NCBI GenBank assembly: GCA_002373755.1
Contig: DFJU01000105.1
Coordinates: 1 to 21,216 of the forward strand
Length of the DNA stretch: 21,216 bases
DNA from: Bacteroidales bacterium UBA3663
GTDB lineage: Bacteria > Bacteroidota > Bacteroidia > Bacteroidales > UBA3663
Direction of reading: 5' to 3'
Part shown: piece by piece, positions 2,219 through 20,132 of the stretch
Layout: each line of letters starts with the position of its first letter
Numbering within the stretch: position 1 is the stretch's first letter
Made by a program: the position numbers and the translations under genes
Notes under the pieces: model-generated
Databases searched by the model: none
Told to the model about the DNA's origin: nothing
The model's input: only the letters and a program-made list of their open reading frames with translations

Positions 2219-2273
2219 AAAAGTCGCGTAGCAAGGCATTGAAGTCGAGCTAAAGGGTCGCATTGGCCGAAAA

Positions 2274-3134
2274 TCACGCCGAGAACTTGCCACGCACCTT
2301 TATCATGGCCACGTAGCCTAGCAGGACGACGTTCATCATCAGTGCGTAGATGATGGCCGGAATGGCGATGCGGCCGTCGTTGAACACAAACGGGCTGCTG
2401 GCCACGGCGATGGCCTGTGCGGCGTTCTGCATACCGACCTCGATGACGATGGTGCGGCGTTGAGCCTCGTCGAGCTTCGCTACGCGGCTCAGCAGTCCGG
2501 CCATGATGACCGACACAAGCAACAATGCCGTGACGCACGCGCCCAAGGTGGTGAAATGCTCGGCGATGGTGTCTTGATGCTGCACGAAGAAGATGGTGGC
2601 CAGCAGCAGCAGCGCGGGGAAGGCGAAGCGCGACAGCACCCTCTCGATGGCCGATGCCGCACGGCTCCAACGCCAGCGCACCACGATGCCGAGTGCGATG
2701 GGCACGAACATCGTCGCCAAGTTCTGCATCAGCAGGTTGCCCACCGGCAAGTGGATGCCGACAGCATCGCCCACCTGAGCCGTGACCCACTGCATGACGA
2801 GCGGCAGGGTGAACAGTGTGACCACCGAGCTGACGGCTGTGAGCGACACCGAAAGCGCCACGTCGCCGCGCGCCAGCATCGAAAACACGTTGCTCGACGA
2901 ACCGCCCGGACAGCAGGCAATCAGCATCACGCCCACCACGAACATGGCAGGTACGTCGAACGCGGCAACCACGCCCCACGCCACGAGGGGCAGCAGGACG
3001 AGCTGGCCGACGAGACCCATCAGCATCGCCTTGGGCGAGCGCACGATGAGCGCAAAGTCGCTGATGCGCAGGGTCAGGCCGAGGTCGAACATCAGAAGGG
3101 TGAGGATGGGAAGTACGATGAAGATGCTGTTCAT
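2274..3134 (-). CDS. Bile acid:sodium symporter family (BASS) transporter
   Basis: A 286-residue integral membrane protein with about nine or ten hydrophobic helices. The family hallmarks are both present: the CPGG motif at residues 75-78 followed by SSSN, and EVGMQN at about 232-237 in the second helix-crossing motif. In structurally known BASS proteins these two regions form the sodium and substrate sites. Members move bile acids or other organic anions such as pantoate, pyruvate or sulfated compounds with Na+; the substrate here cannot be read from sequence. ATG 3132-3134 lies 3 nt after the stop of the upstream peptidase gene, with an AAGGAG ribosome-binding site inside that gene's last codons, so the two genes are co-transcribed and probably translationally coupled. 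Confidence 0.85.
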   Translation of the reverse strand: MNSIFIVLPILTLLMFDLGLTLRISDFALIVRSPKAMLMGLVGQLVLLPLVAWGVVAAFDVPAMFVVGVMLIACCPGGSSSNVFSMLARGDVALSVSLTAVSSVVTLFTLPLVMQWVTAQVGDAVGIHLPVGNLLMQNLATMFVPIALGIVVRWRWSRAASAIERVLSRFAFPALLLLATIFFVQHQDTIAEHFTTLGACVTALLLVSVIMAGLLSRVAKLDEAQRRTIVIEVGMQNAAQAIAVASSPFVFNDGRIAIPAIIYALMMNVVLLGYVAMIKVRGKFSA

Positions 3135-3137
3135 AGG

Positions 3138-4562
3138 TCACTCTCCTTTCGTTTTTAGGATTTCGTCAATGCTGCACGGCTTTTTGTGGCCGATGCGTCG
3201 TGCGCCGTCGTCGGTGATGAGCCAGTCCTCCTCGTTGCGGATGCCGCCGAAGTCGCGGAAGGCATCGAGCCTGTCGTAGTTGATGAACTCGCGGAACCTG
3301 CCTTCGGCGCGCCATTGGTCGATGAGTTCGGGGATGAAGTAGATGCCCGGCTCGACGGTGAAGACGAAGCCCGGCTCCAACGCGCGTCCCAGTCGGAGCG
3401 ACGAGAATCCGAAGCGGCTGTCCTTCTGTGCGCCGCGCGGATAGCCCACATAGACCTCGCCGTAGTTCTCCATGTCGTGCACGTCGAGCCCCATCATGTG
3501 GCCAAGCCCGTGGGGCATGAAGAGGGCGACGGCACCGGCTTCGGCCGCCTCCATCGGGTCGCCCTTCATCAGGCCGAGCTGTTTCAGTCCGTCGGCAATG
3601 AGCGACCAAGCCCGCACGTGGCAGTCGCGGTAGGTCACGCCGGGGCGGATTTTCCGTGTAGTGGCCTCGTAGGTCGCGTAGAGGATGTCATAGACCTCGC
3701 GCTGGCGTGCCGTGAAGTCGTGGCCGACGGGCATCGTCGATGTGCAGTCGCCCGCGTAGTGGCTCATGGCCTCGGCTCCGGCATCGAGCAGGAGCATGTC
3801 GCCGTCGCGCAATGTGTGGATGTAGCCGTGGTTGTGGAGCGTCTGGCCGTGACTCGTGGCGATGGTCGGGAACGAATAGAAGTAGCCTTGGCTGAGGGCG
3901 ACCTGCATCACGGCGGCGTTGATGTCGCGTTCGTGTACGCCGGGGCGCACCATGCGCATTGCCGTCTCGTGCATCTCAACCGTGATGTCGATGGCGCGTG
4001 CAATCTCGGTCAGTTCCTCGTCGCTCTTGTGGTTGCGCATGTCGGCCAACGTGTAGCAGAGTTCGAGCGACGGTGCGGCCGATGGCGCATCGGCCATGAA
4101 CGGGTCGCCTGCCGGAGCCGCGATTTTTTTGCCCAGCAGGTGTTGCAGCCACATCACCGTCTCGCCTCGGTAGGGCGGCACGAAATGCACTGGCTGGCGG
4201 CGGGCAATGGCATCGGCCACGTACTGCTCGAGTGCGGCCAGCGGACGGGTGTCGGCCACGCCGACACTGGCGGCTTTTTCGGCCAATGTGGGTTGCGGGC
4301 CGGTCCAGACGATGTCGTCGATGGTCAGTTCGTCGCCGAACACGACGGTGCGCGCGTTGTCGATGTCGATGACGGCGGCCAACCCCTCGTAGTCGAGTCC
4401 GAAGAGGTAGAGGAAGGTGCTGTCCTGCCGGAACGGATAGTTGTTGTCGCGATAGTTCATCGAGGCCACGCCGTTGCCGAGGAAGAGCAGCAGGCCGCTG
4501 CCCATCGTCTTGGCCAGGCGTTCGCGGCGCTCGATGTAGGTTTGTTTTGGAAATGTTGCCAT
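3138..4562 (-). CDS. pepP: Xaa-Pro aminopeptidase (aminopeptidase P, M24B)
   Basis: A 474-residue cytoplasmic metallopeptidase that removes an N-terminal residue preceding proline. Residues 1 to about 160 match the aminopeptidase P N-terminal domain (NYPFRQDSTFLYLFGL). The rest is the pita-bread catalytic domain. The five metal ligands are visible: D260 (LLLDAGAE), D272 (AGDCTSTM), H355 (PHGLGHMMGLD), E404 (FTVEPGIYF) and a glutamate at 444/445 (GIRNEEDW). Length is normal for the family and there is no signal peptide. It is followed 3 nt later by the BASS transporter gene, forming a two-gene operon. One TCGCGTAG octamer lies inside it at 3674-3681. Confidence 0.92.
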   Translation of the reverse strand: MATFPKQTYIERRERLAKTMGSGLLLFLGNGVASMNYRDNNYPFRQDSTFLYLFGLDYEGLAAVIDIDNARTVVFGDELTIDDIVWTGPQPTLAEKAASVGVADTRPLAALEQYVADAIARRQPVHFVPPYRGETVMWLQHLLGKKIAAPAGDPFMADAPSAAPSLELCYTLADMRNHKSDEELTEIARAIDITVEMHETAMRMVRPGVHERDINAAVMQVALSQGYFYSFPTIATSHGQTLHNHGYIHTLRDGDMLLLDAGAEAMSHYAGDCTSTMPVGHDFTARQREVYDILYATYEATTRKIRPGVTYRDCHVRAWSLIADGLKQLGLMKGDPMEAAEAGAVALFMPHGLGHMMGLDVHDMENYGEVYVGYPRGAQKDSRFGFSSLRLGRALEPGFVFTVEPGIYFIPELIDQWRAEGRFREFINYDRLDAFRDFGGIRNEEDWLITDDGARRIGHKKPCSIDEILKTKGE

Positions 4563-4659: not shown

Positions 4660-6072
4660 TCAGGGGATGGGGTCTTCATAGCACCCTATCGTCGGCGCAT
4701 CTGCCGCGCGCGTCTTGCCGTCGAGGTCGGTGGGACAGATGGCAGCTCCATTGGCCGCACCTGCACCGATGGCTGGCGATTCGGACTGCACGTGGAAGTC
4801 GAACGAATAGTTCGGGATGTCGATGAGGGCGAAGAGCGGATCCTGGTTCCACACCGTGGCAATGAAGTCGTTGTCGTCCGTGCCGCCTTCGGCCAGAATC
4901 AGGCAGTGGTCGAAGCGGTAGCTGGTGATGTCGCCGGCCAATGCCGTTTTCTCCGGGAGGCTGACGTCCGGATCATTCCATCGGCCCCAGATAATCGTAT
5001 TGCGAATGACGCACTCATGGAGCGGTTGCGCGCGTTCGCCATTGGCCGAAATGTTGTCCAGACAGAGCGCGGGGCGCGTCACGGCAGCGGCGAAGTTGTA
5101 GTTGGCCAACGTGCAGTGGGTGATGTCGTGCCAGCCGCCGCAGATGTTGAGCAAGGCTCCGGACGCGTTGCTCAGTTCGCAGTTGCGCAGGGTGAGGCGC
5201 GTCATGCGGCAGGCGATGAGGTGGCTACCGCTGTTTTTCAGTCGGCAGGCATCGAACGTCACATCGGTCGAGTCGAGACGGATTCCGTCGCTCATGCCGC
5301 GTATGTCGGTGTGGCGGAAGAGGCATCCGGTGGCCGTGCTATCGATGATGAGCGAACCCCACTGTGCCGGCAGATTGTCGTAGGGCAGGTTGTCGAACAT
5401 CCAGTCGGTGCGGTCGCCGCGCAGGGTGACGGGTCGGCCGAGGGCGCCCTCGCAGCGCAAGGTGCCGTACACGCGGATGTCGGCCTTGTCGTGCAGGTAG
5501 AGCGTCGAACTGTCGCCGATGGTGAGCGTCACACCGTGGGGGATGACGAGGCTGTCGTAAATCTGCACTTCGGTGCCCGACGGCCAGGTGGCATCGGCCG
5601 CAACGACCTCGCCGCGCAGTTTGGCCACGTCCTTGCTCTGCGCATCGAGCACGACGCTCTGCGTGCGTCCGTTGCAGGTGATGTCGATGTAGTCGGTATG
5701 TTGGGCGGTGGCCGATGTGCCGTCGCTCGGGAATGTTGCCTCGACGAAGATGAACATAGAGTCGCCAGATGCGATGCGCAGCAGGTCGCTGTTGGTGAAC
5801 GATGTGCCGTTCATGCCGTCCACGTTCATGCGGAAGCCGTTGTCCGATGCGCCGCGCAGGGCAATCGAGGTGAGCAGCAGGTCGTTGCCGCAACGGTTGT
5901 AGAGCTTTAACTGGTAGGTCGGACTGCTGTTGCCGGTCAGGAGCAGCCCCATGCTGATGGTGTCGGCCGATGGTGTCGGCTGGTCGGACGGACTGGTTGA
6001 AAAATCGTCGTCGGAACAGGCGCATAGCATTGCCGCCCACAGAGCAAGGATTGAAAAATCGCGTAGTTGCAT
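4660..6072 (-). CDS. Surface lipoprotein with a right-handed parallel beta-helix
   Basis: A 470-residue predicted lipoprotein. The N-terminal hydrophobic segment ends in the lipobox LCAC with C19 as the lipidated residue. It is followed by SDDD, which resembles the acidic lipoprotein export signal that sends Bacteroidetes lipoproteins to the cell surface. The middle (roughly residues 190-390) consists of short repeated strands typical of a parallel beta-helix (ADIRVYGTLRCEG, VTFDACRLKNSGSH, LTLRNCELSNASGALL). The C-terminal SPAIGAGA…DLDGKTR…IGCYE is the usual ending of this protein class. Such proteins often bind or cut polysaccharides, but no catalytic site is evident and the function is unknown. 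Codons 2-6 form one arm of a 13-bp inverted repeat with the leader. Confidence 0.8.
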   Translation of the reverse strand: MQLRDFSILALWAAMLCACSDDDFSTSPSDQPTPSADTISMGLLLTGNSSPTYQLKLYNRCGNDLLLTSIALRGASDNGFRMNVDGMNGTSFTNSDLLRIASGDSMFIFVEATFPSDGTSATAQHTDYIDITCNGRTQSVVLDAQSKDVAKLRGEVVAADATWPSGTEVQIYDSLVIPHGVTLTIGDSSTLYLHDKADIRVYGTLRCEGALGRPVTLRGDRTDWMFDNLPYDNLPAQWGSLIIDSTATGCLFRHTDIRGMSDGIRLDSTDVTFDACRLKNSGSHLIACRMTRLTLRNCELSNASGALLNICGGWHDITHCTLANYNFAAAVTRPALCLDNISANGERAQPLHECVIRNTIIWGRWNDPDVSLPEKTALAGDITSYRFDHCLILAEGGTDDNDFIATVWNQDPLFALIDIPNYSFDFHVQSESPAIGAGAANGAAICPTDLDGKTRAADAPTIGCYEDPIP

Positions 6073-6118
6073 CGCTTCAATGGGTTTGATACCTATCTAT
6101 AACGAAGAACTACGCGAT
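6059..6118 (-). repeat. 13-bp inverted repeat across the start of the beta-helix lipoprotein
   Basis: AAATCGCGTAGTT and its exact complement AACTACGCGATTT lie around 6056-6068 and 6108-6120. On the minus strand the first arm is in the leader and the second is codons 2-6 of the lipoprotein (Q-L-R-D-F). The start codon (6070-6072) lies in the loop, next to the second arm. Each arm contains one TCGCGTAG octamer. Confidence 0.65.
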
Positions 6119-6131
6119 TTATTTTGATGGC

Positions 6132-6189: not shown

Positions 6190-8391
6190 TCAGAGGAAGT
6201 CTTTCAGCATCTGCCAGTCGTTGCTTGCAATGTCGTCAGAATAATGTTCGGTGCAGATGCAGAGTTCGCCACTCTGCTTGTCTTTGCGCACGAATCCACC
6301 CTTCAGGTTGTGTTTCTGCAAATAGGCTTTCAGTACTTCAAATTTCTTCGGACTGAAGATGTCGATGTCTTCGCTCCGGCCCGTACGGTCGAATCCACCC
6401 TTTGTCTCGACAATCCACGTTTCGCCATTTTCGAGGCCGATGATGTAGTCGGGGAAGAACGATTTGAGTTTGCCCGCGTTGTCGGCATAGACGATGGAGA
6501 AATACTCGCTACCCTTGTCGCCGTTCTTGTAAACCCATTTCACCGCTGCGCACGTCTCGCAATATTTCTCAAACGAACGCTCTGAGTCAGAACGTGGTTC
6601 GGCCGAGGCGAGATAACCATCGTACACGCTTTTCGTCATGGTGGATTGGTCTTTCGAGGTGGCATTGTAGGTGAAAATGGTCTCTTGCGGAATGGTGAAT
6701 TTGTATTCCGTGATATTGTCAATCGGTATCGGCAAATTGTCCGTGTCGTTCGACGCTATGGCCTCTTGCACATCGTGGCGCAGGCGGTCGCTGTTGTTGA
6801 GCACAAAGGCGTAGAGCTGTCGCGGTTCAAGGTTCAGCAGCTTCTTGTCGTACTTGTCTTTCTTTCCAAACAGACGGCGTGCAATCAGGTTCATCTGGTC
6901 GTATTGCATACTGATTTTTAGGGCTATTTGCGACAACTCATGATGAAAATCACGACCATGGCGGTGTGTGTTCAATGGTTCACGGATGGCAATGTCGTTC
7001 AACTTGTCTATTTCCTCCTGACTGAGTTTGCGCAGGTCGCCCGAAACGGTGTGCTTCACAATGTCGGCCGAAAAGTTGTAGCCCGCCGTCTCCAATCGTG
7101 TCTGGTTTTCTTTGAAATCTTTGCCCAGATTGTACGTCTTCTGAAAATAGAGTGCGATGGCGTTGAGTGCCTGATAGCTGTCGCGCGGCGTGGTGCTCAG
7201 TCCCGGTTTCTGTTCGCCCGTGAGCGAGAAATTTTTATGCTCTTTTTTCAAGTATAGTTTCACGGCGTTCAATGCGCCTTTGCCCATCGTCGTCTGCACG
7301 CCTTCGGTGAATTTCTCGTCGAGGGTGTAGAGGTAGCAGCGGTCGAGCAAATCGCTGTCGTAGTGGTGCGCTTCGGGCATTCGGCGTATGCGGCCGATGG
7401 TCTGAATCTCGAATGTCTCGCTCATGTTGTCGCGTAGCTTGACGAGGATGTGCGCGCGTGGGCAGTCCCAGCCTGTCGCCACCGCCTGTTTGATGATGAC
7501 GGCTATGGGTTGCGCATCGGGGCGTTCAATGTCGTTGAGATTCTCCTTCTTGTCGCTGAGCCACACTGCAAGCGAGCCGTTTTCGTAGGTTATCTGATGG
7601 CTCTCGAACCACGTTTCGACCTCGTCGAGCAAAACGTCGTTCTTGTTCGGCAATTGGACAATGATTAATGGGTTGACCGACGTTTTTTGTTGCAGAAAAG
7701 CTGTTGTCAGTTCGCGTTGTTTGTTCAATGCCCGTTCGAGCAGGAAGTCGATTTGGTCGTCAACTTTTTCGTTCTGATGAAAATCCTCGTTGATGACGAG
7801 CAGCTTCTTTATCAGTCCAGATGCAACGACATCCGCCTCGTCCACCTCAATGAACTCAACGGCATCTTTGTTGAAATTCTTCGGCGTTGCCGAGGTGCGT
7901 ATTATCTTGTCGGTCTGGAAATATTGCAGAATCTCGTTGGCCTTCACGCTGTCGTTCTGGTGGCTTTCATCGACGATGATTTTGAACTGCAGACCGTTGT
8001 CGCGCGCCGTCTCGATGTGTTCGATGAAGTTTTTGCGCTCGCCCTCCTTCAGGGCGTTGTTGCCCTTCTTGGTCAGTTTTTCCCAGTTGATGAAGCAGCA
8101 GTCGTTTTCGCTGAATCCGCTAGTCATCACGTCGGCAAGCAGTTTGGTCTGCGCATTGTGGATGTATTTGTCCATCTTGGCCTTGCTCTGTTCCTCGAGG
8201 TCGCCCTTGCCCGGCGTGAGCCAGATGAAAACGGTGTTTGCGACGCTTTTGCAATACTCGTCCATGAAGTGCGTGAGCATGATGGTCTTGCCGCTGCCCG
8301 TTGGGCTTTTCAAGATGATTTCGCGCTTGCTGGAGTTCATCGCCTCCATCAGTTTGCCAATTGTATGTAGCTGAAAATCTAATAATTGCAT
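6190..8391 (-). CDS. res: Type III restriction-modification system, restriction subunit (Res)
   Basis: The protein has 733 residues from ATG 8391 (MQLLDFQLHT…). An in-frame ATG at 8421 lies inside a palindromic repeat and would add ten residues; the later start fits the family better. Superfamily 2 helicase motifs appear in order: Walker A SPTGSGKT (29-36), motif II DESH (141-144), motif III TSATP (166-170), then a motif VI-like QTIGRIRRMPE. Near the C-terminus FPDY followed by VETKG forms the PD-(D/E)xK nuclease. Type III Res works with Mod: the complex translocates or slides on DNA in an ATP-dependent way and cuts unmethylated DNA beside the recognition site. All key residues are intact. 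The gene lies 103 nt after mod, a gap filled by two palindromic repeats. Confidence 0.9.
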   Translation of the reverse strand: MQLLDFQLHTIGKLMEAMNSSKREIILKSPTGSGKTIMLTHFMDEYCKSVANTVFIWLTPGKGDLEEQSKAKMDKYIHNAQTKLLADVMTSGFSENDCCFINWEKLTKKGNNALKEGERKNFIEHIETARDNGLQFKIIVDESHQNDSVKANEILQYFQTDKIIRTSATPKNFNKDAVEFIEVDEADVVASGLIKKLLVINEDFHQNEKVDDQIDFLLERALNKQRELTTAFLQQKTSVNPLIIVQLPNKNDVLLDEVETWFESHQITYENGSLAVWLSDKKENLNDIERPDAQPIAVIIKQAVATGWDCPRAHILVKLRDNMSETFEIQTIGRIRRMPEAHHYDSDLLDRCYLYTLDEKFTEGVQTTMGKGALNAVKLYLKKEHKNFSLTGEQKPGLSTTPRDSYQALNAIALYFQKTYNLGKDFKENQTRLETAGYNFSADIVKHTVSGDLRKLSQEEIDKLNDIAIREPLNTHRHGRDFHHELSQIALKISMQYDQMNLIARRLFGKKDKYDKKLLNLEPRQLYAFVLNNSDRLRHDVQEAIASNDTDNLPIPIDNITEYKFTIPQETIFTYNATSKDQSTMTKSVYDGYLASAEPRSDSERSFEKYCETCAAVKWVYKNGDKGSEYFSIVYADNAGKLKSFFPDYIIGLENGETWIVETKGGFDRTGRSEDIDIFSPKKFEVLKAYLQKHNLKGGFVRKDKQSGELCICTEHYSDDIASNDWQMLKDFL

Positions 8392-8494: not shown

Positions 8495-10159
8495 TTATTT
8501 CGTCATTTCGTTGTAATAATAATCGGGAATGACGTGCACGTGTATGCCGTGTGCTGCGATGAACGCCTCCTGTTCGGCTGTCAGCAGCACGTTGTGACCA
8601 CGGTACAGCGTGTGTGGCGGTTGTAGAGACGTTTCATGAAACGTCTCTACGAATTTTGCCATTTCGTCGTCGGTCAGCACGATGGCTATCTCGCTGTTGC
8701 CCGTGAAGTTGATGCCGTTCTCGAGTTCCACCAACTCGCGCACGTGGAGCAGCAGTTCGTCGGCGTATTCGTAATAGACCTTGTCGGTGATGGGGACGAA
8801 ATCGACTTTGTAGTATTTGAGCGAGGCAGGGTATTTTTCCGAGTATTCGCTGCCGTCTTTGCGCTTGCCCGAGATGACTGTTTTCAATCGTTCGTAGGTC
8901 ACATCGCGACAGATGTTGTTCTCGTTGTTGGTGCAGAGAATGAAACGGCGTTTGCCGCCATCTTCGGCATTGAGTTTCATCACGGCGTGACCCGTCGTGC
9001 CACTGCCAGCGAAGAAGTCGAGGATGGTGGCGTTCGGTTTTATGCTTCCTAAATCAATTATTGATGATATGAGTTTTGTCGGTTTGGGATTTGTAAAAGG
9101 AGATTCTCCACTAAACAACTCTTTTAATTCGTCAGTTGCATCTTGATTACAACCGAACAAATCGTTTGGCCACCAATTTGTTGCACATTGACCTTCTTCT
9201 AAACGTTCAGACTTATAATATTTTTTTCTTGGACTTCCGTTGCCATTTTTGGGAAATACAATTCGTCCTTCTTTTTTTAGTTGATTGAATGTAGATTCTT
9301 CACCTAACCATTCTTCTTCAAAAATTTTACCAGTTGGACTTACAATTTTGTAAAAACATCCAGACTGATTATTCGCAGCCTTCCACGGTTTTGTCGCCCA
9401 AGCACCGCGTGGATCATTGTCTGGATTTGAAAATTTTCCAGTGATTTCAACTTTACCAACGCCAAATTTCTTATGTGCCTCTTTGTTTTTTGAATAACAG
9501 ATAATATGTTCTGCTACTAAGCCTATCAATTTGGTTTTGTCATTTGGCTGATTATGTCGTCGTCTCCAATGAATTTGCCCTTCAAAATTTTTCTCGCCAA
9601 ATATGTTATCACAAATATATTTTATTGATGCTTGTTCATTATCATCACAGGAAATAAAAATACACCCAAATTTTGTTAGTAACGATTTAGCAGCCTTTAA
9701 TCTTTTTGAAAGGAATGAAATATATTTACTATGTCTAAATGTGTCATTTATATCAACATAATTATCGTCATACGTAAAATCGTCTTTCTTTCCCGTATTA
9801 TACGGCGGATCAATGTAAATGACATCAATCTTGCCCTTGTGTGTTTTTTCAAGGAGTTGGAGAGATGCAAGGTTGTCGCCTTCGATAAGGAAATTCATCT
9901 GTCCGCCGTTGTCGATGAAGAGGTCGGGCTGCTCGGTCAGGACGGGTACATGTGTTTCAAGCGTTTCGTCAATCGCCTCGCGGTGCTGCTCGAAGACGAG
10001 GCCGTATTTCTTGCCCTTTACGTCTTTCACGAGTTCGTCGAGATACTGGAGTAGGTTGCCCGTGTTCTGGTCTCGCTGGGCTGAGGCAATGTAGGTGCGA
10101 ATCTGTCGGATTTTGTCCAACAAATCTTCGCGATGGAGTTTGGAGATGTTTGTACTCAT
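8495..10159 (-). CDS. mod: Type III restriction-modification system, DNA methyltransferase (Mod)
   Basis: The protein has 554 residues from ATG 10159 (MSTNISKLHR). It is a beta-class adenine methyltransferase: the catalytic motif IV DPPY is at 117-120, and the SAM-binding motif FAGSGTTG follows at 383-390, with the target-recognition region between them. Mod methylates one strand of the recognition site and gives specificity to Res. The central part (about 9045-9830, residues 110-371) is much more AT-rich than both ends, which suggests an exchanged target-recognition segment. Residues 504-512 (VETFHETSL) are encoded by a perfect 28-nt palindromic repeat. No simple-sequence tract for phase variation was seen. 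It is followed by res in the same operon. Confidence 0.92.
   Translation of the reverse strand: MSTNISKLHREDLLDKIRQIRTYIASAQRDQNTGNLLQYLDELVKDVKGKKYGLVFEQHREAIDETLETHVPVLTEQPDLFIDNGGQMNFLIEGDNLASLQLLEKTHKGKIDVIYIDPPYNTGKKDDFTYDDNYVDINDTFRHSKYISFLSKRLKAAKSLLTKFGCIFISCDDNEQASIKYICDNIFGEKNFEGQIHWRRRHNQPNDKTKLIGLVAEHIICYSKNKEAHKKFGVGKVEITGKFSNPDNDPRGAWATKPWKAANNQSGCFYKIVSPTGKIFEEEWLGEESTFNQLKKEGRIVFPKNGNGSPRKKYYKSERLEEGQCATNWWPNDLFGCNQDATDELKELFSGESPFTNPKPTKLISSIIDLGSIKPNATILDFFAGSGTTGHAVMKLNAEDGGKRRFILCTNNENNICRDVTYERLKTVISGKRKDGSEYSEKYPASLKYYKVDFVPITDKVYYEYADELLLHVRELVELENGINFTGNSEIAIVLTDDEMAKFVETFHETSLQPPHTLYRGHNVLLTAEQEAFIAAHGIHVHVIPDYYYNEMTK
8623..8650. repeat. Palindromic repeat copy 3, inside the mod coding region
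   Basis: A perfect 28-nt palindrome with arms GTAGAGACG and CGTCTCTAC and a TTTCATGAAA core, centred between 8636 and 8637. It is in frame with mod and encodes VETFHETSL near the C-terminus. Its arms are identical to copy 2. Confidence 0.9.
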
Positions 10160-10200
10160 CGGCGTAGCTTTTGCGCGTTCAGCCACTTACCGATGATGCA

Positions 10201-10283
10201 GGTCACGCTACAGAAACAGATACCTCAGTGCACAATAAGGGCGTGAACTTCCCTTATCATGCTCCGAGGTATTTGGCGTGACC
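10201..10283. other. Nested three-stem hairpin upstream of mod
   Basis: Three stems nest in one 83-nt block: GGTCACGC (10201-10208) with GCGTGACC (10276-10283); ATACCTC (10220-10226) with GAGGTAT (10266-10272); ATAAGGG (10235-10241) with CCCTTAT (10251-10257) around a 9-nt loop. All pairs are Watson-Crick, so the strand cannot be told from pairing. It shares bases 10266-10283 with the closing stem of the neighbouring long hairpin, so both cannot form at once. Confidence 0.55.
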
Positions 10284-10380
10284 CGCAAAATCAAATAAGT
10301 TCCGTCCACGCCCATGGCGCAGACGTTTACTGAACTTATTCTTGATTTTGCATCTTCTAATCGCCAAATTTTCGGAGCAT
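10259..10380 (-). ncRNA. Candidate structured RNA, long hairpin with a central bubble
   Basis: Read on the minus strand, the 122-nt block folds as one long hairpin. The closing stem is AUGCUCCGA/UCGGAGCAU plus AUUUGGCG/CGCCAAAU (10362-10380 with 10259-10278). Next comes an asymmetric bubble, then an AU-rich stem (10332-10351 with 10285-10302), then an apical stem CGUCUGCGCC/GGCGUGGACG (10316-10325 with 10303-10312) that needs two G·U pairs. Those pairs would be A·C mismatches on the plus strand, so the RNA is on the minus strand. A -7 element (TATATTCG, 10383-10390) places the transcript start at or just inside the hairpin. The shape resembles 6S-type RNAs, and 6S-Flavo is one candidate, but a mod leader or an immobile palindromic element is also possible. 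Confidence 0.5.
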
Positions 10381-10382
10381 CT

Positions 10383-10390
10383 CGAATATA
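10383..10390 (-). promoter_or_regulatory. -7 element for the structured RNA / mod transcript
   Basis: TATATTCG on the minus strand matches the Bacteroidetes -7 form TAnnTTCG. The expected start point is about 7 nt downstream, at the beginning of the long hairpin. No convincing -33 TTTG was seen at the right distance. Confidence 0.45.
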
Positions 10391-10499
10391 GTAGCAAACG
10401 CTAATTGTTTATAATAAATATGTTAACTAAAAATTGTTTTCTGTTTCTTGTTACAAATTTGAGTTAAAGTTTTTGGATAGTTTTTTTGGATTCATATTC

Positions 10500-12327: not shown

Positions 12328-12397
12328 AGTCTTCGACTAAATTACAGATTACTAAATTACAAATTACGACCCTTTATGGCCAATGGTTCAATCCTCA

Positions 12398-12433
12398 CCC
12401 CTCCCTTGTGGAGGGGCTGGGGGATGGGTCTTA
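12398..12433 (-). terminator. G-rich hairpin at the 3' end of the SRPBCC gene
   Basis: CCCCTCC (12398-12404) and GGAGGGG (12410-12416) form a 7-bp stem with a 5-nt loop, followed by GGGGATGGGTCTT running up to the stop codon at 12431-12433. No T-run follows on the minus strand. The layout matches the hairpin beside the beta-helix lipoprotein stop at 4634-4678. Between it and argH, 12338-12368 holds loose repeats of AAATTAC. Confidence 0.45.
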
Positions 12434-12889
12434 GTACGGAATCTTGGTCAATGCCTCGGCAATCATGTCGGCCGCGCCCTCCAGCTTGTTGCCCACCATT
12501 GGGCGGAGGTAGAACGGGATATCGACATCCATCGTTACGCGGATTTTTGTCTGGTAGGCCGATTCGGGCAGCATCTGGATCCAGATGGTGACGGGCACGG
12601 GTGAATTGTCGGCCGAGAACTTGACGCACTTCGGCTCTTCGCGCTCCACGATGCGGATGCAGGCATCCATGCCGTTGACCTTGAACCGGGCGGTGTCGGT
12701 GTCGAACTGGAAGTTGCTCACCTGCACCTTGCCCTGACCCTGCTCTTCGAGCTTGGCCTTGATCTGCTGTTTCATCTCGGCCGGCATGTTGTCCTTCATC
12801 GCCTGAAGGGTGCTCAGGTCGGCGAAACGGTTATAGACGCTCTCCTGGAGCGCATTGACGATTTTTATTTTGCTTTCGTAACGAGCCAT
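12431..12889 (-). CDS. SRPBCC (START/polyketide cyclase-like) family protein
   Basis: A 152-residue soluble protein starting ARYESKIKIVNALQ and ending in a long amphipathic helix (MVGNKLEGAADMIAEALTKI), as in small helix-grip SRPBCC proteins. These have a hydrophobic pocket and bind diverse ligands; the role of this member is not known. It lies between pyrE and argH on the same strand, an arrangement I recall from other Bacteroidales, which suggests conserved linkage rather than a proven metabolic role. The 239-nt gap to pyrE is filled with repeats, so it may have its own promoter, but no -7 element was found. Confidence 0.75.
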   Translation of the reverse strand: MARYESKIKIVNALQESVYNRFADLSTLQAMKDNMPAEMKQQIKAKLEEQGQGKVQVSNFQFDTDTARFKVNGMDACIRIVEREEPKCVKFSADNSPVPVTIWIQMLPESAYQTKIRVTMDVDIPFYLRPMVGNKLEGAADMIAEALTKIPY

Positions 12890-12900
12890 AATTCTTTACT

Positions 12901-13128: not shown

Positions 13129-13764
13129 TCACTTTCCCCACTCGCTCGGATTGGCGCGCCACTGCTTGAGCACCTCAATCTCGTCGGCCTTGATGTAGTT
13201 CAGCTCGGCAGCCTCGGCCACGAGTTCGCTGTAGTTCGACAGGGTGGTCAGTTCGACGTTGGCATCGGCAAAAGCCTGCTGTGCCTGCGGGAACTGGTAG
13301 GTGAAGATGGCCACCATGCCGAGCACGTTGACCTTGGCATCGCGCAGGGCAGCAACGGCCTTGAGCGACGACATGCCGGTTGAAATCAGGTCTTCGACGA
13401 CGACCACGTTCCAGCCCTCCTTCACTTCACCCTCGATGAGGTTGCCCATGCCGTGATCCTTCGGAGCCGAACGCACGTAGAGGAACGGTACGCCAAGGGC
13501 ATCGGCCACAAGTGCGCCCTGAGCGATGGCACCCGTTGCAACACCTGCGATGGCGTCGATCTTGCCGCCGTACATGCGCTGGATGGTGCTGACCAGACCG
13601 GTCTTGATGATGGTGCGCACCTCTGGATAGGCCAAGGTCTTGCGGTTGTCGCAATAGATTGGCGAATGCCAGCCCGAAGCCCAAGTGAATGGGTTGGATG
13701 GCTGCAACTTGACGGCCTTGATGGCCATGAGCTTTTCGGCTACGAGACGTTCGATTGTTTTCAT
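13129..13764 (-). CDS. pyrE: Orotate phosphoribosyltransferase
   Basis: A 211-residue cytoplasmic enzyme that joins orotate to PRPP to form OMP in pyrimidine synthesis. The PRPP-binding motif VVVVEDLISTGMSS lies at 121-134 with the acidic pair E124/D125; most relatives have GGS where this has GMS. The substrate-binding region around residues 25-45 (FTWASGWHSPIYCDNR) and the flexible-loop region (APKDHGMGN) are present. Length is normal. It is the first gene of the pyrE-SRPBCC-argH-lipoprotein cluster, with a well-formed -7 element about 120 nt upstream. Confidence 0.95.
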   Translation of the reverse strand: MKTIERLVAEKLMAIKAVKLQPSNPFTWASGWHSPIYCDNRKTLAYPEVRTIIKTGLVSTIQRMYGGKIDAIAGVATGAIAQGALVADALGVPFLYVRSAPKDHGMGNLIEGEVKEGWNVVVVEDLISTGMSSLKAVAALRDAKVNVLGMVAIFTYQFPQAQQAFADANVELTTLSNYSELVAEAAELNYIKADEIEVLKQWRANPSEWGK

Positions 13765-14061
13765 AAGCGGTTATATTTTAGTTTGTTATTATGAATTTTA
13801 TCTTTAATTTTTTTGGTGGGCGGCCGATGACGGCTTCCTGAAACTCCCCAAACAGGGTGGGTCCGGTGGACCTGAAAATCGCGCAAAGATAGCATTTTTT
13901 GGGCAATGTCGTGCGCGTGCGTCGTTAAATCGGCCAACGCCCCACAACTTTGTCGAGTAGCGGCCGACGCACCTGCCAACCGGAAGCAGAATGTTGTTTT
14001 TTGGCAAGCAATCGTGACAAACAAGAAGACAACCGACCTCTGACGCGCCAGCAAAAACGAA
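13765..14061. other. Intergenic region upstream of pyrE
   Basis: About 300 bp with no supported gene. Apart from the -7 element at 13884-13891 it holds an AT-rich stretch just before pyrE (13772-13812) and a GC-rich remainder. Open frames here on the minus strand lack a plausible start or protein-like composition. Confidence 0.5.
13884..13891 (-). promoter_or_regulatory. -7 promoter element for pyrE
   Basis: TATCTTTG on the minus strand is a perfect match to the Bacteroidetes -7 consensus TAnnTTTG. It predicts a leader of roughly 110 nt before the pyrE start. No clear -33 TTTG was found at the usual spacing. Confidence 0.6.
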
Positions 14062-14105
14062 CTACGCGACTTTTCCTGTCCAATGCTGACGGAAAAGTCG
14101 CGTAG
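14062..14105 (-). terminator. Terminator hairpin after the TlpA-like gene, built from paired octamers
   Basis: CTACGCGACTTTTCC (14062-14076) and GGAAAAGTCGCGTAG (14091-14105) form a perfect 15-bp stem around a 14-nt loop, 22 nt after the stop of the thioredoxin-like gene. On the minus strand TTCGTTTTTG follows, giving a plausible U-rich tail. Both arms carry a TCGCGTAG octamer. Confidence 0.75.
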
Positions 14106-14127
14106 CAGTCTGTCATTCAGTAGGTTT

Positions 14128-15207
14128 TCATAGACCGTCGCCATTGCCGAAGCGTCGTTCCACGTCGGCCAGGATGATTCCTGGATCCGCACCGCACGGT
14201 GTGCAGATTCGGCCGTCGGGACCGATGAGCATGAGCGTCGGCAAACTGCACACGCCGTAGGTGCTCATCGTCTTGATGTCTGCCACCTGTGGGTAGGTCA
14301 CGCCGAGTTGCTGCACGATTTCGCGCGCCCGTTCCACATTGTTCGACATGCGTGGCATCACGCCAACCATGAGCAGCCCGTTACCCTTGCATCGTTCATA
14401 AACCTCCTGCAAACGTGGCATCGTGGCGATGCACGGCCGGCAGAACGAGCCCCAGAAGTCCAGCAGCACATATTGGCCGTGGCCGATGTAGTCCGACATC
14501 CGCACCGAGTCGCCTGTATGGAGGTCGATGCCGCGTGCGTCCTTCAGCAGGTCGCCCTCCTGCGAGCCGTAGCGGAACGAGTTCTGCTCTTCGACGATGG
14601 AGACGTAATTGCGCATCCGCACCGGCGCGGACAGCGAGTTGAGCAGTGAATCGACCACCTGTGGCGGCATGACGTTGAAGTCCACCCAGATGACGAACTC
14701 AGAAATCGGATGGTCGGGATATTGGCTGACGATGTTGCAGACCTCGGCCGTGATGCGCCTGCAGCGTTGACGCCAGTCGTCCAGTGTGCCGTGCTCGTAG
14801 TCGAATTGTCGGGCCAGGAAGAAGCGTCTTAGCACCTCGTTGAGCGGTGTCCCGCCCATGTTGTCGATTGCCTTCCGTTCGCCGGTCAGGTCGATGTCGA
14901 GTCGGATTGTGCCATATTCCAGACAGATTAGCATGGTCTGCACCCGACGGTGACCAGATGCGGCGATGCGGCACAGCGTGTTGTGGCCGACGGTGTCCTG
15001 CAACGGCACAATCTGTCCGTCGCGGGCGTAGAGCGTGGCGATGGTGTCGCGATCCGCCTCGCTCACGATGTAGAACGTGTCGGCCGCGTTGTCGCTTTTT
15101 ACGGTGCCCTCGATGCGCCATGCGTCGCTTGGTGCATCGGCCGTACAGCCAATGAACAGAATTTGGCCGATGATGGCCGACAGGATTGTCAGTAACAATG
15201 TCTTCAT
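14128..15207 (-). CDS. TlpA-like thioredoxin-fold lipoprotein
   Basis: A 359-residue lipoprotein. The signal peptide ends FIGC with C21 lipidated; the following TADAPSD lacks a strong acidic surface-export signal, so it may stay periplasmic. Residues about 30-130 look like the N-terminal DUF4369-type beta domain common in Bacteroidetes TlpA proteins. The C-terminal thioredoxin fold holds the redox motif CRPC at 256-259 (FWGSFCRPC) and the cis-proline at 323 (SLPT). It probably reduces or reshuffles disulfides in the envelope. It has its own promoter (-7 at 15236-15243) and a terminator directly after it, so it is likely monocistronic. Confidence 0.88.
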   Translation of the reverse strand: MKTLLLTILSAIIGQILFIGCTADAPSDAWRIEGTVKSDNAADTFYIVSEADRDTIATLYARDGQIVPLQDTVGHNTLCRIAASGHRRVQTMLICLEYGTIRLDIDLTGERKAIDNMGGTPLNEVLRRFFLARQFDYEHGTLDDWRQRCRRITAEVCNIVSQYPDHPISEFVIWVDFNVMPPQVVDSLLNSLSAPVRMRNYVSIVEEQNSFRYGSQEGDLLKDARGIDLHTGDSVRMSDYIGHGQYVLLDFWGSFCRPCIATMPRLQEVYERCKGNGLLMVGVMPRMSNNVERAREIVQQLGVTYPQVADIKTMSTYGVCSLPTLMLIGPDGRICTPCGADPGIILADVERRFGNGDGL

Positions 15208-15243: not shown

Positions 15244-15310
15244 GTCATCGGCCACAAATAGCCGGAAAAAAAACGTGGGACAATGTTGGGACATCGGCCG
15301 AAAAAGTCGT

Positions 15311-16765: not shown

Positions 16766-17238
16766 AGGTCATCGTCGTCGGGTTGGTTCAGCTGGCGCAG
16801 GGCTTGGCCGATGATGTTGCTCTCGAATCCGCGTTGCGCCGCGAAACGGTAGATGCGGGCGCGGTCGTTGGGCGACAATGGCAGCTTCATTCCGCGCATT
16901 TTTCCGCGTAGCAGGTCGGTCAGCGTGGTCACGTAGCTGTCCGGGTCGATGACGTCGTCCATCGTGTTCTGAACCAGCGCACCGCCTATGCCCTTCTGTC
17001 GCAAGGCATAGGCAATCTTGACGCGGCCCCATCGCTCGTAGGTGAACTTGTCGTTCACGAAGGCGTGTACGAAACGGGCCTCGTCGAGGAATTTCTCGTC
17101 GCGCAACCGCTGCATGATGCGTTCGATGTCGGCTTCGGCCGTTTCCCAGTCGCTCAGTTTCTGCGCGACGTCGTGCGGTGCGCGTTCTGCTTGGCTGCAA
17201 TATGCGGCGGCGCGGTTGAGTGCTTGTTCGTAGGTCAT
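16762..17238 (-). CDS. recX: Regulatory protein RecX
   Basis: A 158-residue all-helical protein of normal RecX length, with repeated three-helix units. The hallmark segments are present: LRDEKFLDEARFVHAFVNDK near residue 45-65, then ERWGRVKIAYALRQKGI, a usual RecX block. RecX binds RecA filaments and limits recombinase activity. It is usually next to recA in other phyla but stands free here, between prmC and comF. The start is ATG 17238, 25 nt after the prmC stop; that gap is an 8-bp tandem repeat and shows no ribosome-binding site. Confidence 0.85.
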   Translation of the reverse strand: MTYEQALNRAAAYCSQAERAPHDVAQKLSDWETAEADIERIMQRLRDEKFLDEARFVHAFVNDKFTYERWGRVKIAYALRQKGIGGALVQNTMDDVIDPDSYVTTLTDLLRGKMRGMKLPLSPNDRARIYRFAAQRGFESNIIGQALRQLNQPDDDDL

Positions 17239-17242
17239 TGTT

Positions 17243-17290: not shown

Positions 17291-18414
17291 TGGGCCAATA
17301 CGAACCTGTCGCGTCCGTCGAAGTCCTTGCGCAGCGTCACGCCGGTGTAGCCCAAGTCGCGTAGCAGTTGGCAGGTTTCTGCACCGAACGATGCGTTGAT
17401 TTCGAAGTACAGGCCACCGCCCGGGCGCAGGTGCCGTTGGCCGTAGCGGGCAATTGCCCGATAGAACAGCAGTGGGTCGTCGTTGGGCACGAAAAGGGCA
17501 AGATGTGGTTCGTGGTCGAGCACGTTGGCCTCCATATCAACAGCCTCGCGCCGGCAGATGTACGGCGGATTGCTCACGATGGCATCGTAGAGCGCATTGC
17601 TGCGGGCCGCAGTGCGGTTCACAACTTCGCTCGGAAGTGTGGATAACTCGGTTGAGAAGTCCGTTTCTTCTTCGCGCAGGATGTCGGCCTCGACGAAACG
17701 CACGTTGCTGATTCCCAATGCTTTTGCGTTCGATTTTGCGACGTCCAATGCCGCTGTTGACAAGTCGGCGGCGGTTATGAACGACCTGTTTATATCTGCG
17801 GCCAACGAAAGGGCGATGCAGCCGCTTCCGGTGCCCACATCGAGCAAGTTGTAAACCGGTTTGTCAACAGGGTTTTCAACCACTTTTTCAACTACGCGAC
17901 TTGCGTTTTCAACGGAGTTTTCAACAGGGCTTGAAGTGGCCTTGTCCGATGGGTTTTCAACAGAGTTGTCAATGGTTTTATCAACCGGATTGGGGCAGTT
18001 TTCAACATCGTTGTCCGATGGGGAATCTGGCTTTTCAACGACGTTTTTCACAGCGTTGTCAACTGGGTTTTCGGCGTTTCTCAACCGTTTGTCAACAAAG
18101 TTATCAACAACCATATCGACCAGTTCGGCCGTTTCGGGACGCGGGATAAGCACATCGGCCGTGACCCTGAATTTGCGTCCGCGGAACCATGTGTAGCCGA
18201 GCACCTGCTGCACCGGAATGCCGTCGGCCAAAAGCCTTCCGCAGGCCTCGAGCTGGGTGCGTTGCGCATCGGACAAGACGGCCGTCTGCATGACGATCTG
18301 CGTGTAGCTGAAGCCGCACAGTTCTTCGAGCAGGAGGCGCACGACGGCCTTCGCTTCGCGGGGTTCGTAAAGGGGTGTGAGCAGGGCTTGCAGCCGCTGG
18401 ATTGCTTGCTTCAT
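17263..18414 (-). CDS. prmC: Release factor glutamine methyltransferase PrmC (HemK), with a repeat insertion
   Basis: PrmC methylates the glutamine of the GGQ motif in release factors RF1 and RF2. The start is ATG 18414 (MKQAIQRLQ); a TTG seven codons upstream is less likely. The N-terminal helical domain spans about 1-80, then the linker IPRPETAELVD (90-100), SAM motif DVGTGSG (192-198) and catalytic NPPY (282-285), all intact. The total of 383 residues is about 100 more than usual. Most of the excess is residues 104-186, a low-complexity run of V-[DE]-[NK]-x-P-type units that separates the linker from motif I and is encoded by a repeat array. A smaller extension lies at about 246-272. The C-terminal residues come from the 8-bp repeat. 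It is first in the prmC-recX-comF-TIGR02757 operon. Confidence 0.92.
   Translation of the reverse strand: MKQAIQRLQALLTPLYEPREAKAVVRLLLEELCGFSYTQIVMQTAVLSDAQRTQLEACGRLLADGIPVQQVLGYTWFRGRKFRVTADVLIPRPETAELVDMVVDNFVDKRLRNAENPVDNAVKNVVEKPDSPSDNDVENCPNPVDKTIDNSVENPSDKATSSPVENSVENASRVVEKVVENPVDKPVYNLLDVGTGSGCIALSLAADINRSFITAADLSTAALDVAKSNAKALGISNVRFVEADILREEETDFSTELSTLPSEVVNRTAARSNALYDAIVSNPPYICRREAVDMEANVLDHEPHLALFVPNDDPLLFYRAIARYGQRHLRPGGGLYFEINASFGAETCQLLRDLGYTGVTLRKDFDGRDRFVLAQKPHNLITS
17857..18110. repeat. Array of degenerate TTTTCAAC/TTGTCAAC repeats inside prmC
   Basis: On the plus strand about 15 copies of a T-[TAG]-TCAAC core, mostly as GTTTTCAAC, GTTGTCAAC or TTATCAAC, occur at irregular 10-25-nt spacing over some 250 bp. 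They encode the VDN/VEN/VDK units of the PrmC insertion. Spacing and sequence are too irregular for a CRISPR array. Confidence 0.8.
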
Positions 18415-18444
18415 TTTCGGGAAAATACGGTTCAAAAATCAGGG

Positions 18445-18567: not shown

Positions 18568-18575
18568 TATCTTCG
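18568..18575 (+). promoter_or_regulatory. -7 promoter element for the DUF6242-porG operon
   Basis: TATCTTCG matches the Bacteroidetes -7 form TAnnTTCG. The predicted start point is about 18 nt before ATG 18600. It is divergent from the prmC promoter. Confidence 0.55.
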
Positions 18576-18599
18576 CACCCGTTTTTTTACGACATACGA

Positions 18600-20132
18600 A
18601 TGAACCTGTCCATCAACCGAATATCCAAAACCGCACTCTGCGCGCTTGCATCGGCCGTCATGTTGTCCGGCTGTTTCGACGACAACGACTCCGAAACCAT
18701 CGTCAACGACTACGACAATGCGCTCATTACGTCGGTCAGCCTTTCGACCAACACGAAGGTCTGCTCAAACCTTTCCAGCTATACATTTACCATCGACCAT
18801 CTCGGAACCAGCGACGAAGACCTCATCGAGCGCTGCGCTTCGTTGTGGCAGGTCGATGAATATTCGCAGCAACCGGGCATCATCTTTAATGCCGATTCCC
18901 TGCCGGTTGGCTCTGTGGCCGACTCGATCAAGGTGACGCTGTCGTATTCGTCGCCCTACAAGGTGCGTTTCTTCCAGTACGACTCGACGCTGACGCTTCA
19001 GAACGTCACCAACTATGCCGACACTCAGATCATTTGGTTCGACGACTATGCCGTGACCCGCATCGAGGTTGTGGCCGAAGACCAGCTGACCAACAAGAGC
19101 TACTTCATGAAGATGAACGTCCACACCCAGACGTCCGACACCATCATGTGGAAATATGCCGCTACCGACCTCTTCGACATGAGCGACGTCATCGACCAGC
19201 GCGTTGACACGTTGGGCACGACGCTCTGCTGGTACACGATGTCGGCCGACAGTTCACAGCAGGTGCGCACGGCCGATCTGACAGGCGACATCACCGCATG
19301 GAGCGACGCACAGGCCGTCACTGCGCCATCGGCCATCAACCTCGGCACGCTGCTCAACTGGGGCGGCAAAATCTACGGCGTGGGCTACGACAAGCAGCTG
19401 CTTGCCACGACCGACGGCATCGCATGGAGTGTGGCATCGGCCGACTATAGCTTCGTCAACCTGCTGGGTGTCCAGCTGGCCGACAGAAATCGCGTAGCGG
19501 AGCACTTGTGCGCCATCGCAATGGTCGATGACACTTGCCGCTTCGTGCGTTCGGCCGACGGTGCATCGTGGCAGCTCGATTCGTTGACCATCGGCGGCAC
19601 CACGACATCGGCATTGCCCGCCCGCTTCCCGTTGTGGGACTATACACGCCCGATTTCCGTCGAGGCCGACCTGGAGGGCGGCAGCACCCGTTCGCGAATC
19701 TACATCAGCGGCGGAATGTTGGCCGACAGCACTCTCACATCGAGCACTTGGGCCACCGACGGCCTGCAATGGGTCGAGTTCACGCAGCACATCGTGCCGG
19801 CTGCCCGCCGTTCATCGGTCGTGCGCTATCAGCTCGATGTTGACGACCCCGACAGCTTCTGGATCATGCAGCTCGGCGAGCGGGCCGACGGCAGCGTTAC
19901 CGACACGCTCTACTTCAGCCAGAACAGCGGCGTGACGTGGAAGATGCTGCAACGCGAATTCTACAAATACGGCGATACGTATCCGATTGCGCAGTTCGGC
20001 TGTAGCAGCGCGTTCGTCAACCCGAAGAACTACCGCATCTACTTCATCGGCGGCAAGAACAACGACGGCGAACAGGAGAGCAACATCGTGACCGGACAGC
20101 TCGCCAACCTCGCCATGGATCAACTCCGCTAA
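18600..20132 (+). CDS. DUF6242-type surface lipoprotein
   Basis: The protein has 510 residues from ATG 18600, chosen because it opens with a signal peptide ending in lipobox LSGC (C25); an in-frame ATG at 18522 would precede the promoter. FDDND after the cysteine looks like an acidic surface-export signal. The N-terminal domain (about 40-200) is a beta-rich, possibly Ig-like region. The rest contains repeated blade-like stretches with DG-IAW, DGASW and SGVTW motifs, typical of beta-propeller (sialidase or Kelch-like) repeats. I recognise it as the DUF6242 type seen next to porG-like genes in Bacteroidales, from memory. Function is unknown. It ends 20 nt before porG. Confidence 0.75.
   Translation: MNLSINRISKTALCALASAVMLSGCFDDNDSETIVNDYDNALITSVSLSTNTKVCSNLSSYTFTIDHLGTSDEDLIERCASLWQVDEYSQQPGIIFNADSLPVGSVADSIKVTLSYSSPYKVRFFQYDSTLTLQNVTNYADTQIIWFDDYAVTRIEVVAEDQLTNKSYFMKMNVHTQTSDTIMWKYAATDLFDMSDVIDQRVDTLGTTLCWYTMSADSSQQVRTADLTGDITAWSDAQAVTAPSAINLGTLLNWGGKIYGVGYDKQLLATTDGIAWSVASADYSFVNLLGVQLADRNRVAEHLCAIAMVDDTCRFVRSADGASWQLDSLTIGGTTTSALPARFPLWDYTRPISVEADLEGGSTRSRIYISGGMLADSTLTSSTWATDGLQWVEFTQHIVPAARRSSVVRYQLDVDDPDSFWIMQLGERADGSVTDTLYFSQNSGVTWKMLQREFYKYGDTYPIAQFGCSSAFVNPKNYRIYFIGGKNNDGEQESNIVTGQLANLAMDQLR

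Follow-up and report, generated by a model that had tools for sequence, protein, structure and literature searches.

The window and its iterated word

The window analysed here is the whole 21,216-nucleotide stretch of contig DFJU01000105.1 from Bacteroidales bacterium UBA3663. It carries a Peptidase_M24/AMP_N gene, type III restriction-modification genes, a Lyase_1 family gene (argininosuccinate lyase, by our reading), prmC, a DUF6242 gene and a ComF-family gene. Scattered in and between these genes is an octamer, TCGCGTAG, which together with its extended form AAAAWTCGCGTAGY is called motif A. The counts given below confirm motif A as a DNA-level signal enriched across the whole genome, and its properties suggest a possible role in DNA uptake. 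The genome holding the window (G000) is a 2.84 Mb assembly, 70% complete. It was compared with that of a sister species (G009), each species being represented by one genome, and with the remainder of a genus set of 15 genomes, all of them incomplete and in 50–330 contigs each. The control throughout was the motif reversed, with the same letters in the opposite order.

The window contains 12 copies of TCGCGTAG, compared with a mean of 0.67 in dinucleotide-preserving shuffles (maximum 4 in 100). All 12 copies claimed in an earlier note on this sequence are present, one of them at 10706 instead of 10707, and 11 fit the flanking pattern RTCGCGTAGY that it proposed; in the exception, at 3674, the next letter is A. 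Genes were called with a simple codon-score script, which misses genes of low guanine plus cytosine (GC) content and some true starts. It placed seven copies in genes and five (2224, 6059, 6110, 14062 and 14098) outside. An open reading frame (ORF) starting at 6072 opens with MQLRD... and is lipoprotein-like. The copy at 6059 forms its codons 3–5, corresponding to the LRD reading of the earlier note, and is probably coding.

Motif A is enriched as DNA, in and between genes

In the G000 assembly TCGCGTAG occurs 1336 times (669 forward, 667 reverse), compared with 380 occurrences of the reversed word. Two samples of G000 were used for finer counts, one of 346 kb with 152 copies of motif A, and one of 428 kb for recounts of intergenic sites and pairs. 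In the 346 kb sample TCGCGTAG was the top-scoring octamer, with 152 copies against 12.9 expected under an order-3 Markov model. The over-representation thus holds against a Markov model, and a count near expectation, named in the earlier note as grounds for dropping the claim, is excluded by the genome-wide figures.

Called genes contain 118 of the 152 copies, compared with 7.0 ± 2.5 after synonymous-codon shuffling (maximum 14 in 200). An excess over codon shuffles was seen for the reversed word too (42 versus 20.7, maximum 34); this null is therefore imperfect, and low by about twofold, not seventeenfold. Outside called genes motif A was found 34 times against 0.81 expected, and the reversed word once against 1.29. 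In view of the genes and starts that the script overlooks, a strict recount was made, with each gene lengthened to its most distant start and all ATG-initiated ORFs of 120 amino acids or more masked. In the 39 kb of the 428 kb sample that were left, motif A occurred 18 times (0.50 expected) and the reversed word not at all (0.60 expected). Within called genes motif A occupied all five orientation and frame combinations that lack an in-frame TAG. Codon use alone is therefore insufficient to explain one octamer in several frames and on both strands, as the earlier note had argued: the excess over the codon null is 17-fold, and there is an intergenic excess as well.

Chi and KOPS sites work in a single orientation, and one replication strand usually carries more of them than the other. 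Strand use of motif A was homogeneous among contigs (15 contigs, 152 sites, chi2 14.2, 14 degrees of freedom), and a polar version of the chromosome-organising or recombination hotspot motif, one of three candidates of the earlier note, was rejected for this reason. Counts of [CT]CGCGTAG in bins of 2.5, 5 and 10 kb gave variance-to-mean ratios of 1.2, 1.5 and 1.1.

In a logo of the 152 copies conservation extends from about –4 to +10, and homology around the copies does not reach beyond about 15 bp. The intergenic consensus is AAAA[A/T]TCGCGTAGY. The frequency of adenine at –5 to –2 was 0.72–0.88 in 50 intergenic motif-family sites, 0.68–0.91 in the 44 unpaired intergenic sites and 0.77–0.87 in 30 sites under the strict mask, so that an AT-rich tract flanks the core, as in uptake sequences. 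Two one-mismatch variants are evidently tolerated, CCGCGTAG (57 versus 8.2 expected) and TCACGTAG (50 versus 7.5). Unconstrained fitting of motifs by expectation-maximization was discarded: in G000 both fits reduced to codon periodicity, and in G009 the fit was diffuse.

A different word in the sister species

G000 contains 393 copies of the extended motif A, RTCGCGTAGYG; the highest count among 392 other genomes of the order (G009 not among them) is 16. Within the genus, TCGCGTAGY was counted 1230 times in G000, 370 times in G009 and 6–37 times in the 13 others. One genome of the order (G391) has RTCGCGTAGYG 3 times forward and 13 times reverse; GTCGCGTAGCG is the reading at each of the 10 places listed, which may point to a repeat or a gene family.

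The prevalent word of G009 is motif B, TTTTGGCCAATG (TTGGCCRATG). Its core TGGCCRATG occurs 5039 times in G009 (reversed word 25) and 2233 times in G000 (reversed word 42). The 13 other genus genomes contain 103–498 copies, G014 the most, with controls at 25–72; a low-level excess of motif B is thus genus-wide. For TTGGCCRATG the count in G000 is 958, and none of 392 other genomes of the order (G009 not included) has more than 139. Motif B exceeded codon shuffles in both species (208 versus 33.5 in G000, 186 versus 21.6 in G009), and was enriched outside genes (36 versus 1.65 and 50 versus 0.82, respectively). A T-rich tract precedes the core at 634 intergenic sites of G009. Motif B is partly palindromic, with a near-palindromic core TTGGCCAA; 120 kb of G009 contained 12 sites with the full palindrome CATTGGCCAATG.

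Alignment of the G000 sample to 1.14 Mb of G009 gave 48 segments and 95 kb, which were divided by two-state segmentation. In the diverged sequence (60.4 kb) motif A was found 20 times in G000 and 3 times in G009, and motif B 25 and 123 times. In the near-identical sequence (34.8 kb, in patches down to 52 bp) the corresponding counts were 12 and 11 for motif A, and 40 and 43 for motif B. Where local identity was below 84%, only one of 20 G000 copies of motif A was kept in G009; at 90% identity or more all nine were kept, random octamers being kept at 0.63–0.79. The 23 copies in segments less than 90% identical comprised 2 that were kept, 18 that aligned without gaps but with substitutions, and 3 in gapped positions. 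A dispersed small repeat, another candidate of the earlier note, was rejected on the basis of these ungapped alignments and the lack of extended homology in the logos. The loss of the octamer from sister orthologues, which the earlier note had set down as refuting its claim, does occur in diverged segments. It is not counted as a refutation here, because the sister has a different iterated word.

Divergence between the two species is uneven along the window. The Lyase_1 family protein is 99% identical between G009 and G000, and positions 16140–18414, on the same G009 contig as the near-identical tracts, are 73% identical. Identity at fourfold-degenerate sites was 0.90–0.94 in the called genes between 8495 and 12889 and 0.55–0.59 in those at 16115–18414; across 67 genes it ranged from 0.24 to 0.97. 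Near-identical tracts longer than 400 bp were all below 99% identity. From this pattern we infer mosaic homologous exchange between lineages that would otherwise keep different words.

Motif A and motif B sites are intermingled in G000 at the rate expected by chance (63 within 200 bp, 62 expected). Excess one-mismatch forms of motif B per perfect site numbered about 2.5 in G000 (613 versus 195; reference TGGCCGATG, 167 sites) and 1.1 in G009 (165 versus 23; reference TGGCCAATG, 126 sites), the A/G alternative being omitted in each case. For motif A in G000 there is no such excess beyond its two tolerated variants. Together these figures offer a lead, and only a lead, since different reference words were used for the two genomes, that in G000 motif A may be the younger word and motif B a decaying one.

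Hairpins and inverted pairs

The two inverted pairs in the window fold, on the minus strand, into hairpins of –26.5 kcal/mol (6059/6110, z –5.8) and –32.0 kcal/mol (14062/14098, z –7.0). The earlier note had placed both hairpins in non-coding DNA. This holds fully for 14062/14098 and not for 6059/6110, which spans a likely start codon and for that reason is not a plain terminator. A simple terminator scan limited to loops of 3–8 listed neither hairpin, and Rfam gave nothing at gathering threshold.

Three further inverted pairs of motif A with A/T-tracts were found outside called genes. In the 428 kb sample 10 of 54 motif-family sites outside called genes sit in inverted pairs within 80 bp, and '+-' pairs within 35 bp numbered 3 against 0.23 expected (p 0.0012). 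In such pairs the A-tracts yield T-runs after the stem. Within genes of the 346 kb sample all seven pairs found within 80 bp were same-strand and none was inverted, the numbers being small. For motif B in G009, raw counts of pairs within 35 bp were 26 '+-', 4 '-+' and 8 same-strand outside genes, and 24, 10 and 22 inside genes; these pairs have no U-run after the stem.

Iterated words in other Bacteroidota

A survey for iterated words took in those of 80 loci around the same gene that were 9 kb or longer. The word of the window ranked second, and AAGTATAAA of Pontibacter ruber JC213, which belongs to another order, scored above it. The 4.8 Mb genome of this strain contains 2758 copies of AAGTATAAA (1372 forward, 1386 reverse) and 38 of the reversed word. 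In an 81 kb sample the word occupied all six orientation and frame combinations in ORFs, with 20 copies compared with 0.7 after codon shuffling (maximum 4) and none of the reversed word (0.7 after shuffling). It was denser between ORFs (39 in 17 kb, versus 21 in 64 kb), and no extra flanking tract was seen in this sample. Thus AAGTATAAA resembles motif A in its many copies, both strands and many frames; it is a different word, without the flanking tract and without an excess of inverted pairs. Iterated DNA words are therefore recurrent in Bacteroidota.

The 13 other genus members were screened for words of their own in samples of 7–80 kb each. Candidate words of G007 and G004 proved to be tandem or clustered repeats and were rejected as dialects. 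So was TGGTCGATG in L079 of G006 (RGIG3218, a Bacteroidales metagenome-assembled genome from goat reticulum), which was weak, with 5 copies versus 0.4 in 16 kb, yet 1 versus 0.8 in another 40 kb. In G012 GGGTTAAGGG and related words were over-represented (14 versus 0.0 in 50 kb, sample L072–L074). The Prevotellaceae contigs L092, L097 and L158 contain clustered words of the AGTGAAAA type, with AGTGAAAA itself 26 times in 21 kb of L097. Among the open-literature matches listed, and as judged from those listings, no report of uptake sequences in Bacteroidota was found.

Transformation genes, methylases and motif-free DNA

ComEC was detected in 12 of the 15 genus genomes, and DprA in 13, including G000 and G009. 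The ComF-family gene of the window scores below the curated cut-off. Its nearness had been offered as a pointer to uptake but, with the motif spread over the whole genome, has no value as evidence. Riemerella anatipestifer, also a member of Bacteroidota, is described in the available text of PMC8459023 as transforming naturally with ComEC, DprA, ComF, RecA and a helix-hairpin-helix protein, and fimbrial and outer-membrane proteins are proposed there to take part.

Matches to C5 cytosine methylases were found at three loci of G000 (contigs C101, C50 and C105) and were absent from 11 of the 15 genomes, including G009, in the C5 survey. The G000 methylase stretches examined look acquired, since they have 39–47% GC and no motif A. 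Seven long motif-free stretches of G000 were also listed, with 29 ORFs of which 20 were scanned. Four, at 37–41% GC, carry defence-like genes: Schlafen AlbA and a helicase; a type I specificity subunit and a YhcG nuclease; DarT; and an AAA-ATPase with PD-(D/E)XK. One at 38% GC had no Pfam match, and two at 63% and 45% GC contain metabolic and MoxR/VWA genes.

The positions of motifs and tracts are collected in Table 1. The type III restriction-modification genes of the window (6190–10186; ResIII and N6_N4 methylase) are common to G009, the aligned part, 6194–9028, being 89% identical. The prmC gene (17263–18435) has a low-complexity insert of about 80 residues (VENPVDK-like) before the methyltransferase domain.

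Table 1. Motif sites, inverted pairs and tracts in the window, and motif-free stretches elsewhere in G000
Feature	Position	Strand	Remarks
Motif A TCGCGTAG	2224..2231	+	intergenic, AAAAG flank
Motif A	3674..3681	+	inside Peptidase_M24/AMP_N gene 3138-4562; only copy off RTCGCGTAGY
Motif A	6059..6066	+	hairpin arm; probably codons 3-5 of lipoprotein-like ORF starting 6072
Motif A	6110..6117	-	partner hairpin arm, intergenic
Inverted pair of motif A, hairpin	6050..6125	.	covers likely start codon at 6072
Motif A	7430..7437	+	type III restriction (ResIII) gene; common to G009
Motif A	10706..10713	+	small ORF 10500-11057; common to G009, 97% identical tract
Motif A	11763..11770	-	Lyase_1 family gene; common to G009
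Motif A	14062..14069	-	hairpin left arm
Motif A	14098..14105	+	hairpin right arm
Inverted pair of motif A	14052..14115	.	perfect 15 bp stem, between called genes
Motif A	17357..17364	+	in prmC
Motif A	17892..17899	-	in prmC, within low-complexity insert
Motif A	19490..19497	+	in DUF6242 gene
Motif A variant CCACGTAG	2309..2316	+	double variant; raw sample count 36 coding, 1 intergenic
Motif A variant CCGCGTAG	2480..2487	-	
Motif A variant CCGCGTAG	3752..3759	+	
Motif A variant TCACGTAG	10919..10926	+	
Motif A variant CCGCGTAG	16904..16911	+	
Motif A variant TCACGTAG	16929..16936	+	
Motif B TGGCCGATG	2648..2656	+	
Motif B TGGCCGATG	3187..3195	+	
Motif B TGGCCGATG	4088..4096	-	
Motif B TGGCCGATG	4211..4219	-	
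Motif B TGGCCGATG	5709..5717	+	
Motif B TGGCCGATG	10658..10666	-	
Motif B TGGCCAATG	10898..10906	+	
Motif B TGGCCAATG	11055..11063	-	
Motif B TGGCCAATG	12377..12385	+	
Motif B TGGCCGATG	13500..13508	-	
Motif B TGGCCGATG	14480..14488	+	
Motif B TGGCCGATG	15164..15172	+	
Motif B TGGCCGATG	15246..15254	-	
Motif B TGGCCGATG	16805..16813	+	
Motif B TGGCCGATG	19327..19335	-	
Motif B TGGCCGATG	20145..20153	-	
Near-identical tracts	9762..12893	.	96.4-98.5%; common to G009
Motif-free stretches	L060 1-5811; L217 1-5581; L215 5455-10658; L054 1-5966		37-41% GC, defence-like genes

Discussion

The observations to be explained are a genome-wide enrichment at the DNA level, an extended consensus, different words in sister species, the lack of strand polarity, close inverted pairs between genes, and words that track divergence. 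We hold, at about even confidence and by analogy with known systems, that motif A is a self-recognition word of the DNA-uptake type. The match rests on abundance, use of many frames, the AT-rich extension, some close inverted pairs, words specific to a lineage, and the presence of both words in near-identical DNA. Of the three candidates in the earlier note, an uptake signal is therefore the one favoured, and the polar motif and the dispersed repeat are disfavoured.

A surface or periplasmic receptor of the lineage would bind AAAAWTCGCGTAGY on incoming duplex DNA, and conspecific fragments carrying it would be taken up and recombined. Repeated preferential recombination of this kind could build up the word in every frame and in both orientations. 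G009 would have a receptor for the unrelated motif B, and continued exchange between the two lineages would leave words of both kinds in near-identical tracts. The uptake, the receptor, and exchange as the cause of those tracts, with its direction, are deductions from sequence; that the receptor might resemble the fimbrial or outer-membrane proteins of R. anatipestifer is a guess.

The closest parallels are the DNA uptake sequence (DUS) of Neisseriaceae and the uptake signal sequence (USS) of Pasteurellaceae. DUS are described in the part of PMC3630211 at hand as present in thousands of copies, with inverted pairs at terminators and low-count 'peregrine' words of other dialects. Motif A is similar in its hundreds to thousands of copies in and between genes, some intergenic inverted pairs, lineage-specific words and what may be low-count words of another dialect. 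It differs from DUS in being an unrelated word, in a genus of Bacteroidota in which no type IV pilus ATPase passed the cut-off and uptake is deduced. With USS it shares genome-wide abundance and some inverted repeats, and inverted repeats of both DUS and USS act as terminators according to an excerpt of PMC12616744. It differs in being another word, without a receptor candidate; an inner core is common to the two USS dialects (same source), whereas motifs A and B have none in common. The USS core carries AT-rich tracts, as does motif A. We regard motif A as working like an uptake sequence and do not file it in the DUS or USS families, since the pilus search gave no match above cut-off.

Several observations weigh against an uptake role. 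The DUS receptor ComP and the predicted USS receptor (ComN) are, in the sources as available, type IV minor pilins. A T2SSE/PilB-type ATPase (type IV pilus or type II secretion system) scored above cut-off in none of the 15 genus genomes, with six weak matches below it, in a search that covered the ATPase. ComEC was not found in G000, which is 70% complete, and ComEC and DprA are each present in 11 of the 13 genus mates without motif A. Transformation genes thus do not predict the word, because most mates lacking it have them. Apart from the two tolerated variants, the one-mismatch neighbours of motif A show no excess (176 observed, about 207 expected), which counts against uptake because a long balance of mutation and drive might leave such neighbours. 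No bias of motif A toward gene ends was seen, and a bias of that kind is reported for Pasteurellaceae in the available part of PMC2346458. Inverted pairs pooled over all sites showed no excess; under the strict mask just two '+-' pairs were left, beside two same-strand pairs at 36–80 bp, and AAGTATAAA gave 3 inverted and 5 same-strand pairs between genes in the 81 kb sample. DUS dialects are variants of one word, as far as the cited account goes, and the words of the two sisters are unrelated. Finally, fourfold-site identity forms a broad continuum without two clear classes, and constraint on synonymous sites may contribute to the near-identical tracts.

A rival explanation is a highly iterated architectural word such as HIP1 of cyanobacteria, serving as the site of a methylase, a repair enzyme or a nucleoid protein, kept by DNA-level selection without any part in uptake, and changing with the protein of the lineage. 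The genome-wide density of motif A resembles that of HIP1 as given in the accessible text of PMC4390886; both are DNA-level words, motif B has its near-palindromic core and its palindromic sites, G000 has the C5-methylase matches, and the Pontibacter word lacks an inverted-pair excess. We nevertheless think this explanation unlikely. Motif A is not a palindrome (TCGCGTAG differs from its own reverse complement), no C5 methylase is a consistent partner across the two species, G009 having the denser word and no match, and the methylase stretches of G000 lack motif A and appear acquired. Nor would an architectural site be expected to differ wholly between sisters that appear to exchange genes. 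A Chi-like word, shielding self DNA from the RecBCD/AddAB nuclease and promoting recombination, would likewise be frequent, short and spread over the sampled contigs, and would favour exchange with word-bearing DNA; it is improbable given the absence of strand polarity, a 75:25 skew being expected to raise the chi2 from 14.2 to about 52.

That motif A is a transcription terminator, or another RNA element spread by copying, seems very improbable. The two window hairpins and the three further inverted pairs with A/T-tracts speak for it, but called genes hold 118 of the 152 copies, for which a terminator-only origin was rejected, 10 of the 54 sites outside called genes are in inverted pairs, and one window hairpin covers a likely start codon. 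Copying is further opposed by the ungapped alignment of 18 of 23 copies in the sister. An artefact of binning, assembly or codon use is scarcely credible. The genus genomes are incomplete and fragmented, G006 is metagenome-assembled, and the reversed word exceeds the codon null about twofold; against this, motif A exceeds that null 17-fold and is enriched outside genes, its sites are intermingled with those of motif B at the chance rate, and the long near-identical tracts, being less than 99% identical, are not the same reads.

A broader and more tentative proposal, which we would put at somewhat below even, is that Bacteroidota have an uptake code without a type IV pilus. Such a code would have arisen more than once, the Pontibacter word being a third. 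The sisters would have switched to the unrelated words AAAAWTCGCGTAGY and TTTTGGCCAATG while exchanging genes, and G000 would be caught in mid-switch, with a sharp new motif A and a partly decayed motif B. The uptake-sequence systems described in the literature consulted belong to Neisseriaceae and Pasteurellaceae, and a word of this type in Bacteroidota would suggest an independent origin and a different outer-membrane receptor. For the general question of iterated words, P. ruber provides a named strain. A word of the uptake kind would allow gene flow to be read from sequence, and two unrelated words in sisters that share near-identical tracts would make it possible to study, as a natural experiment, the origin and switching of such codes and their part in isolating species.

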